Assembly: GCA_020072815.1 (NCBI GenBank)
Contig: JAIQGE010000006.1
Coordinates: 186,001-250,000 of the forward strand
Length of the DNA stretch: 64,000 nucleotides
Source of the DNA: Terriglobia bacterium
Lineage (GTDB): Bacteria > Acidobacteriota > Terriglobia > Terriglobales > Acidobacteriaceae
Reading direction: 5' to 3'
Under the pieces are notes generated by a model, which saw only the letters and a list, made by a program, of their open reading frames with translations, was not told where the DNA came from and made no database searches. Below are positions 21,081 to 21,476 of the stretch, in pieces (within the stretch, counting starts at the first letter, position 1; each line of letters opens with the position of its first letter). The translations under genes and the position numbers were made by a program.

Positions 21081-21158
21081 TAGGCGCGTAGCTCAGTTGG
21101 TTAGAGCGCTACCTTGACACGGTAGAGGTCTGGGGTTCGAGTCCCCACGTGCCTACCA
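21081..21158 (+). tRNA. tRNA-Val (anticodon GAC), CCA encoded
   Basis: A full cloverleaf is visible: acceptor TAGGCGC pairs with GTGCCTA (one G-T), D-arm GCTCAGTTGGTTAGAGC, anticodon stem CTACC/GGTAG with loop TTGACAC (anticodon GAC at 21116-21118), T-arm TGGGGTTCGAGTCCCCA, and encoded CCA at 21156-21158. A TAAAAT at 21057-21062 could be the -10 box. The gene is followed 13 bases later by a GIY-YIG nuclease gene. Confidence 0.96.
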
Positions 21159-21171
21159 TTTATCTCATTTC

Positions 21172-21423
21172 ATGGCGTTCACGTACGTTCTTCGGAGCAC
21201 CACGAGCGGCAGGTTTTATATCGGTTCGGCGCTCAAGCTGCAGGAACGGCTTGATGAACATGCACGCGGGCATAGCCCATACACGAGGGGGCGTGGACCG
21301 TGGAAGTTGGTCTACCAGGAACAATACTCAACGTTGGCTGAAGCTCGCCGCCGTGAACGCCAGCTGAAATCGTGGAAGTCACACCGATCGATTCAAGAAC
21401 TCATCGACAAGAAGTTGGTTTAG
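21172..21423 (+). CDS. Small GIY-YIG nuclease inserted at a tRNA locus
   Basis: The 83-residue product is a stand-alone GIY-YIG domain: TYVLRSTTSGRFYIGSA carries the Y...YIG variant motif, followed by LQERLDEHARG (catalytic Arg region) and PWKLVYQEQYSTLAEARRRE with the conserved Glu, then a basic helix KSWKSHRSIQELI. Such domains cut DNA at one strand per site and occur in homing enzymes and UPF0213-like proteins. The gene starts 13 bp after tRNA-Val. Its last codons and TAG stop are made of tRNA D-loop sequence (from 21413), so its 3' end is fused to a tRNA fragment. This suggests a mobile, tRNA-targeting unit. Confidence 0.85.
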   Translation: MAFTYVLRSTTSGRFYIGSALKLQERLDEHARGHSPYTRGRGPWKLVYQEQYSTLAEARRRERQLKSWKSHRSIQELIDKKLV

Positions 21424-21476
21424 AGCGTCCCGGCTCGCCGGGAAGGTCTGGGGTTCGAGCCCCCACATGCCTGCCA
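21413..21476 (+). pseudogene. tRNA 3' fragment (D-loop to CCA) fused to the GIY-YIG gene
   Basis: From AGTTGG at 21413 to CCA at 21476 the sequence matches the tRNA-Val gene: the D-loop and 3' D-stem, AGGTC variable region, T-arm TGGGGTTCGAGCCCCCA, and the acceptor strand ATGCCTG. The anticodon arm differs (TCCCG/CGGGA) and has a six-base loop. The 5' acceptor strand and 5' D-stem are absent, so no cloverleaf can form. It is a tRNA relic or an attachment-like duplicate. Confidence 0.85.

Follow-up and report, generated by a model that had tools for sequence, protein, structure and literature searches.

How does a short, free-standing nuclease gene come to lie between an intact tRNA gene and a second tRNA-like sequence that forms the end of its own reading frame? 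We analyzed this arrangement in a stretch of 64,000 nucleotides (the window) from a Terriglobia bacterium of the Acidobacteriota (assembly GCA_020072815.1, contig JAIQGE010000006.1, positions 186,001 to 250,000 of the forward strand). A sequence-only reading had proposed a tiny mobile unit, centered on the nuclease, that inserts at tRNA genes and leaves a chimeric tRNA relic. The locus has the following parts, in window coordinates:

21082..21158, + strand: intact tRNA-Val(GAC) gene with encoded CCA (ARAGORN; Rfam RF00005, 69.7 bits)
21159..21171, + strand: 13-bp spacer between tRNA-Val and the GIY-YIG gene (flank comparison with locus L316)
21172..21423, + strand: GIY-YIG nuclease gene, 83 aa, ATG to TAG, catalytic domain only (Pfam PF01541, E = 2e-14)
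21414..21427, + strand: D-arm remnant (3' side) of the second tRNA-like copy, about 14 nt (sequence)
21428..21443, + strand: replacement hairpin TCCCGG-CTCG-CCGGGA at the place of the anticodon arm (sequence, fold, same hairpin type in relatives)
21444..21476, + strand: tRNA-Val 3' part with variable loop, T-arm, acceptor 3' strand and CCA (alignment with the intact copy)

The tRNA-Val(GAC) is the single tRNA in the window, and ARAGORN and Rfam agree on its position; the sequence-only reading had identified it correctly but set its start one base early. The 83-codon GIY-YIG gene 13 bp behind it was confirmed by Pfam. As had been claimed, the gene ends within the second tRNA-like sequence: its TAG stop codon (21421-21423) lies inside the D-arm remnant, and the end of the ORF overlaps the partial tRNA-Val. 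The near-identical 3' part with CCA also held up, as the 33 nt at 21444-21476 match 21126-21158 of the intact tRNA at 30 of 33 positions (91%), and a 32-nt pattern of this tail occurs twice in the window against zero occurrences expected from shuffles. What had been read as a five-bp anticodon stem with a six-base loop is instead the listed hairpin, and not a remnant of the anticodon arm. Judged from its letters, this hairpin is a replacement for the anticodon arm and does not derive from that of tRNA-Val. The replacement had been overlooked, and the tandem arrays, mirror layouts and enclosed tRNAs described below lie in other genomes.

Two familiar kinds of element were considered and rejected. 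Rfam searches at the gathering threshold found only tRNA and tmRNA in the window and 18 related loci, with no group I or II intron or other known RNA family. Integrase-type islands and phages leave the tRNA intact and carry a 3' tRNA fragment at their far end, a layout that the window locus shares; it differs in the small size of the unit, about 320 bp, and in the hairpin at the junction. The two tRNA 3' ends of the window are only 318 bp apart, the gene between them is the GIY-YIG gene, and no integrase gene fits there.

The first 11 bases of the spacer, TTTATCTCATT, equal the flank of tRNA-Val(GAC) in a unit-free genome of the same genus (L316), and the sequences diverge beyond them. This identity would be compatible with simple insertion behind the tRNA and also with regeneration of the tRNA, and either copy in the window could be the native one. 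A search for an empty allele by synteny returned, among the matches listed for 60 relatives, sequence covering the tRNA and little upstream of it, and the 19 other tRNA-Val(GAC) loci examined in relatives all lack the neighbor genes of the window. Because these neighbors are absent and the matches end near the tRNA, the comparison is limited to the immediate flank of the tRNA. The nuclease gene was present at 1 of 19 other tRNA-Val(GAC) loci of relatives (L140), 63% identical and with an in-frame stop by hand translation. At nine more such loci tblastn did not find the gene, and at one of them (L324) we recognized an N-terminal remnant by eye; broken copies at this tRNA are thus known from two other Acidobacteriota. 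The window's own genome has a second GIY-YIG gene (L002, C6:123267-126482), 34% identical by protein search, with no tRNA within its 3.2-kb locus. That gene is flanked by an inverted repeat, GGGACCCCTAT ... ATAGGGGTCCC.

The encoded protein has the fold and catalytic residues of the GIY-YIG superfamily. The PF01541 match spans residues 2-71, and an AlphaFold2 model (mean pLDDT 88) adds one more helix at the end, residues 71-82. In an alignment of 42 relatives (A4), Y16, G18, H30 and E62 are invariant, and Y5 and R26 are kept in at least 90%; the window protein also has the K-x-W-K-S tail of the tRNA-linked subfamily described below. A DNA-binding part of its own, as in SegB-type homing endonucleases, was not found by Pfam or in the model, which hold a bare GIY-YIG core and the C-terminal helix. 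SegB is longer than the window protein. By Foldseek, the UPF0213 structure 1zg2 is the only PDB match at E <= 0.001, followed by Slx1 at E = 0.02-0.03, placing the closest solved sequence and fold in the UPF0213 branch and, more weakly, in the Slx1 branch. We know of no link between proteins of these branches and tRNA genes. Slx1 is a structure-selective nuclease, so a hairpin or cruciform substrate would fit the window protein, with the caution that Slx1 is the weaker structural match. Against its relative at L052, the window protein is 71% identical while third codon positions are 41% identical, and dN is 0.29 against a dS of 2.6 that is near saturation and could be computed for this pair and not for L053 or L054. 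The ORF is therefore a coding gene under purifying selection.

To place the gene among its relatives, we searched 396 genomes of the phylum, the own genome among them; 147 hold a GIY-YIG match of some kind. The best match outside the own genome (L003, 49% identical) has its ATG 6 bp behind a tRNA-Asn(GTT). The end of this gene runs into a copy of tRNA-Asn in which a long CCCCGGCGGTA...TACCGCCGGGG hairpin stands at the anticodon position and the tRNA 3' end is identical at 33 of 33 positions. A scan of 84,980 species genomes with a three-member alignment then gave 196 relatives, the best 80 of which were analyzed; the scan is biased in that its patterns came from three relatives, two already known to be tRNA linked. 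Among these best 80, 71 loci had more than 250 bp of upstream sequence, and 52 of the 71 have a same-strand tRNA no more than 250 bp upstream (in 44 cases at most 100 bp away, in 8 at a greater distance). The 52 linked loci cover tRNAs for Val, Asn, Ala, Lys, Arg, His, Pro and Asp with 13 anticodons, the commonest being tRNA-Val(TAC) at 22; L106 is counted here by its upstream tRNA-Val (179 bp), and the tRNA split at that locus is a tRNA-Ala. Among the 19 unlinked loci, several are mirror forms, follow relics of an earlier unit or have been rearranged (L054); two are located at protein genes. The best 80 come from Acidobacteria, Bacteroidetes, Chloroflexi, Verrucomicrobia, Desulfobacteraceae, Zixibacteria, Poribacteria and several candidate-phyla lineages.

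Linkage recurred in two further searches, whose query alignment (A3) itself consists of tRNA-linked rows. Across 58 Polaribacter genomes with 30 loci, 9 of 11 loci of the near subfamily (E <= 4.3e-17 to the tRNA-linked model) lie behind a tRNA, two of the nine being members of the query alignment. Six of the nine are at tRNA-Val, two at tRNA-Pro and one at tRNA-Phe; of the two unlinked loci, one belongs to a triple array in which no tRNA was detected and the other has only 161 bp upstream. Weaker-scoring Polaribacter GIY-YIG genes are linked at 1 of 19 loci. The subfamily is common in Bacteroidota, occurring at E <= 1e-16 in 35 of 118 genomes of one even draw, which returned 28 new loci with an upstream tRNA at 20 of the 27 assessable.

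Linkage is concentrated in one sequence subfamily. Rows with the K.WK[SN] tail are tRNA linked in 57 of 65 cases against 15 of 74 other GIY-YIG rows, a comparison in which the motif overlaps one search pattern of the 84,980-genome scan. A quick tree was built from 149 rows, 139 of them labeled; L001 (a duplicate of the window), L072, L081, L131, L055 and L104 were left out, as were sequences that were too short or contained stops. The tree requires 16 changes of linkage, compared with 40 or more in each of 200 shuffles. For isotype (14 labels, tmRNA included), the 63 linked rows need 20 changes or more, and shuffling gives a minimum of 28 and a mean of 31. The subfamily thus appears to keep to tRNAs, and partly to one isotype, yet to move between tRNAs.

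The second half of the window's layout, the relic, is also shared by relatives. Of 53 loci, counting the window and the L003 contig, 33 repeat at least 28 of the last 33 tRNA nucleotides no farther than 250 nt from the end of the gene, and such a relic is absent at the other 20. As a control, tails were swapped for those of tRNAs of other isotypes, and none of 425 such comparisons reached 28; farther downstream, none of 48 did. Weaker relics were left uncounted, since 14 of the 425 swapped tails reach 25 of 33. In the Bacteroidota draw, a relic at this threshold is kept in only 5 of the 20 linked loci. The search for GIY-YIG genes near tRNAs with comparison of their 3' ends, suggested by the sequence-only reading, found both linkage (52/71) and relics (33/53). 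An intact second tRNA overlapping the nuclease gene, which would count against a relic, was not met in the related genomes compared, and the loci examined there did not include a conserved GIY-YIG gene with this 3' sequence at a distance from tRNAs.

Hairpins at the anticodon position were found in 52 of 79 rows, 47 of them unique. A regular expression made picks in 63 of the 79 rows (L055 and L104 excluded beforehand), from which we removed eleven off-position picks by eye (L054, L065, L067, L083, L088, L091, L099, L100, L106, L108 and L117). The base of the hairpin has the consensus (T/C)CCCG..CGGG(A/G). Only the outermost pair is a fair test of pairing, as the expression itself required a CCG/CGG-like core and the inner stem determined which partner was taken; this pair is T-A in 37 of the unique hairpins, C-G in 4, A-T in 1, a wobble in 3 and unpaired in 2. 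The fifth pair inward is A-T in 34, G-C in 10, C-G in 2 and T-A in 1, and inner pairs vary freely. The extent of the replacement differs between loci: at the Verrucomicrobia tRNA-Asn targets L118, L120 and L124, the hairpin extends to the anticodon loop and is followed by the native 3' stem, and at L110 and L277 it stands in place of the 3' stem and variable loop.

Some relatives have other layouts. In a mirror layout (L056, L110, L127 and L130), a hairpin-bearing tRNA 5' part is followed by the nuclease gene and then the intact tRNA. At three loci, a tRNA is split near its anticodon loop, and between its halves lies another tRNA gene, complete and of the same isotype (tRNA-Glu at L083, tRNA-Ala at L091 and L106). 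The outer halves pair with each other at 7 of 7 acceptor positions and with the inner tRNA at 4 to 6 of 7, suggesting that the outer halves are the host's and that the inner tRNA arrived with the unit. Two relatives lie at protein genes. At L065 the nuclease gene follows uvrB, the last part of which is repeated behind the unit with 15 of 16 residues and only 35 of 48 nt identical; at L087 the 5' end of a protein gene is doubled, as seen by eye. A layout like that of gene-end-replacing ORFs, in which a substitute end would have displaced the native one, is seen at uvrB and at the three split tRNAs.

Gain and loss are visible among close relatives. Using the sequence upstream of tRNA-Val(TAC) as a query, we obtained 30 loci of this site from 58 Polaribacter genomes: 3 carry the gene (one has two copies), 26 only the tRNA, and in 1 no tRNA was detected. 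The gene lies beside tRNA-Val(TAC) in three further Polaribacter genomes (L280, L283 and L285). Such occupied and empty sites at one tRNA are the comparison of closely related strains that the sequence-only reading had suggested, and a gene that is beside its presumed target and patchy among close relatives, as observed here, is a feature of SegB-type homing endonucleases. Comparison of empty L188 with occupied L194 places the native terminator behind the relic, as if displaced. In the corresponding test on Polaribacter flanks, occupied and empty sites matched above background in this one pair only (84% versus 70-78%).

The unit is also found amplified. In Mucilaginibacter terrigena, two contig ends each carry three copies of the gene in 350-bp repeats, and neighboring repeats are identical at 350 of 350 positions where compared. 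Two-copy arrays occur in Polaribacter, Echinicola, Chryseobacterium and Marivirga (two sites in the last, where one gene has a stop). In Poribacteria (L079, 218-1480), eleven tandem tRNA-like copies with a 107-bp period lie behind a tRNA-Pro(CGG); ten are identical and without a nuclease gene. Gene finders call these copies odd tRNAs.

The explanation we favor, with a probability of roughly 55%, is a very small selfish element of the chromosome, about 320-350 bp long, that parasitizes tRNA genes and keeps the tRNA working. As far as sequence comparison can establish them, linkage, relic, hairpin, polymorphism, arrays and enclosed tRNAs are in place, and the idea of a nuclease-centered mobile unit with a chimeric relic is well supported by many isotypes in distant bacteria, a polymorphic orthologous tRNA and the arrays. 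From these patterns we infer cutting and movement by the nuclease; homing, and the T-arm as the target supposed by the sequence-only reading, are putative. The nuclease would introduce a break in a tRNA gene or at the hairpin, and repair by recombination via the tRNA's own 3' half and T-arm would join the unit to its target. The tRNA would stay or become whole at one end, and its 3' half would remain behind the hairpin at the other. Repair through tRNA homology could insert, duplicate or remove the unit. An excised circle of about 350 bp would contain the tRNA 3' half, spacer, gene, D-arm and hairpin; one crossover between it and the 3' half of an empty tRNA gene would produce the forward layout, and repeated crossovers would produce tandem arrays. 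By keeping a working tRNA, or enclosing a different one of the same isotype as at the three split loci, the element could be tolerated in needed genes.

Several points count against this selfish-element explanation. The protein is predicted to have no DNA-binding part beyond its GIY-YIG core and C-terminal helix. An uncut donor tRNA is a puzzle, because the intact tRNA of forward-type loci is often identical to the relic in its 3' half. The agreement of the window flank with the empty same-genus site may reflect plain insertion equally well. Relics are weak at many loci (below 28 of 33 at 20 of 53 scan loci and 15 of 20 linked Bacteroidota loci), the tree shows partial inheritance of isotype (20 changes, with a shuffled minimum of 28), and L065 and L087 are at protein genes.

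Genes for tRNAs are landing sites for large islands. If the favored explanation is right, a whole parasite would consist of one 80-residue nuclease gene and a hairpin, about 320 bp in all, among the smallest autonomous mobile elements. It would represent a natural "break and rescue" strategy within needed RNA genes, account for odd "pseudo-tRNAs" and tRNA arrays reported by gene finders, and be a bacterial chromosomal counterpart to SegB and the fungal gene-end-replacing elements discussed below. More tentatively, we suggest a new class of bacterial mobile element in which a minimal GIY-YIG nuclease and a CCCG...CGGG hairpin invade tRNA genes, keep or bring a working tRNA, and multiply as tandem units and nuclease-free hairpin copies (the L079 array and the double-hairpin elements of genome G521, below). 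Such a class would be chromosomal and spread over many phyla, with very few traces among the phage, plasmid and viral sequences searched: 3 weak matches in 50,697 phage records, 1 plasmid record and, in viral contigs, no relative by a single-protein scan and 6 loci by an alignment scan, none with a tRNA within 1.5 kb.

The strongest competing explanation, which we regard as unlikely, makes the hairpin the mobile part: the GIY-YIG enzyme would act on CCCG...CGGG hairpins that jump into tRNA loops and elsewhere, with duplication of the tRNA as a by-product. This would resemble REPIN/RAYT systems, in which short hairpins are dispersed through a genome with one chromosomal nuclease gene, RAYTs being Y1 tyrosine transposases. 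The 1.0-Mb genome of L065 (G521) has the palindrome TCGAGGATNCTCGA at 13 sites against 0 for the reversed control. The sites examined (L220, L223 and L225 among them) are the centers of short double-hairpin elements, TCCCGA..TCGAGGA|TCCTCGA..TCGGGA, and at both L065 and L087 the nuclease gene lies within the left-hairpin loop of such an element. These G521 elements are MITE-like, and the ends they share with the nuclease-bearing element are a likeness to REPIN/RAYT; the differences are that the linked gene is GIY-YIG, not a Y1 transposase, and that most of the hairpins studied are in tRNA relics. Four element-bearing Bacteroidota genomes (G451, G452, G454 and G461) have 29, 30, 37 and 71 TCCCGA..TCGGGA hairpins against 0-1 in the control, and further hairpins sit in the D- or T-loops of some relics (L127, L111 and L194). 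Many of the hairpins in the four genomes lie away from tRNAs, and one locus of G461 (L245) is a doubled tRNA-like sequence with two hairpins.

As to a dependence of the hairpins on a linked gene, as in REPIN/RAYT, G521 has paired hairpins and Polaribacter shows a weak association. There, 11 element-bearing genomes have 0 to 18 hairpins and the 47 others 0 to 24 (Mann-Whitney p = 0.006, with the element's own hairpins counted), and some of these may be ordinary terminators. The palindrome itself occurs in only 5 of 12 genomes, at 13 sites in one, at 1 to 4 in four and at none in seven. The window's own genome yielded no other hairpin-tRNA in a pattern search, which gave 5 matches against 8 and 7 in the reversed control, with the window copy alone tRNA-like by eye. 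GIY-YIG enzymes hydrolyze DNA, and strand joining by them is not known to us, which also counts against hairpin mobilization.

A second alternative, which we consider quite improbable, is that the gene hitchhikes: tRNA genes are general insertion hotspots, recombination between tRNA repeats would spread whatever DNA intervenes, and the nuclease would be idle in its own spread. Partial 45-nt copies of the tRNA-Val 3' part, found a few kb from the tRNA in several relatives, do resemble ordinary island attachment sites. An idle gene fits poorly with the absence of anything but the GIY-YIG gene between tRNA and relic in the window, with the concentration of linkage in the subfamily with the K.WK[SN] tail and with purifying selection on the gene. 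The 45-nt copies (genomes G411, G429 and others) begin near the anticodon, lie 2.6-4 kb from the full tRNA and are probably attachment sites of small islands.

Least probable is a system acting at the RNA level. The relic would then be a functional RNA resembling tRNA and serving as decoy, antitoxin or guide, and the nuclease would act on tRNA or be directed by the relic RNA. The overlap of the ORF end with tRNA-like sequence in the window and many relatives, hairpin pairing kept while letters change, and an L003 relic that folds better than shuffles (z = -2.2) speak for it, but the window relic as a whole fragment folds no better than shuffles (z = -0.25), many relics lack a 5' acceptor strand or are interrupted by further hairpins, and L065 and L087 are sited at protein genes.

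For the selfish-element explanation, the best experimental parallel is SegB of T6. SegB is a free-standing GIY-YIG homing endonuclease of T-even phages whose gene lies beside tRNA genes (PMC13096335, PMC2988022), and free-standing GIY-YIG genes beside phage tRNAs are thus already known (PMC2988022). The T6 enzyme is described as cutting within tRNA genes, its catalytic residues are required for tandem amplification of tRNA-Tyr with segB, and short homology exists between the ends of the tRNA and segB (PMC13096335). As in our unit, a GIY-YIG gene beside tRNAs, many isotypes and tandem amplification of tRNA plus gene come together. Its motif RAWTSGAAC, at 23 of 83 sites, is helpful and not required (PMC13096335); by our own comparison, the reverse complement GTTCSAWTY resembles the T-loop sequence of the window and relatives. 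SegB differs in being phage-borne, whereas the window family left only the few weak phage matches given above, and the portions of PMC13096335 and PMC2988022 consulted describe no anticodon-arm hairpin, tRNA relic or enclosed second tRNA.

The other parallel is fungal. Mobile endonuclease ORFs of fungal mitochondria replace the 3' ends of genes (atp6 in Allomyces; atp6, atp9, cox2 and nad3 in Glomus); they encode LAGLIDADG enzymes, or GIY-YIG in atp9, and supply a substitute gene end while the native end is displaced downstream (PMC3630166). The layout of L065 at uvrB matches this description. The fungal ORFs differ in that their targets are mitochondrial protein genes, and the consulted part of PMC3630166 describes no tRNA targets, hairpins or tandem arrays. 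By analogy, the unit would work like SegB and the fungal ORFs, and its hairpin side may be a kind of its own. Among the top matches listed from open-license PubMed Central, we found no description of a tRNA-linked family of GIY-YIG genes on bacterial chromosomes that has an anticodon-arm hairpin, relics and enclosed tRNAs.

More distant GIY-YIG genes of Acidobacteriota lie behind tmRNA (L019 and L045) or behind tRNA-Leu, tRNA-Glu and tRNA-Met (L022, L046 and L047). Palindrome-rich spacers precede the genes at L019 and L022, and at L019 about 16 nt of the tmRNA 3' end are repeated behind the gene.
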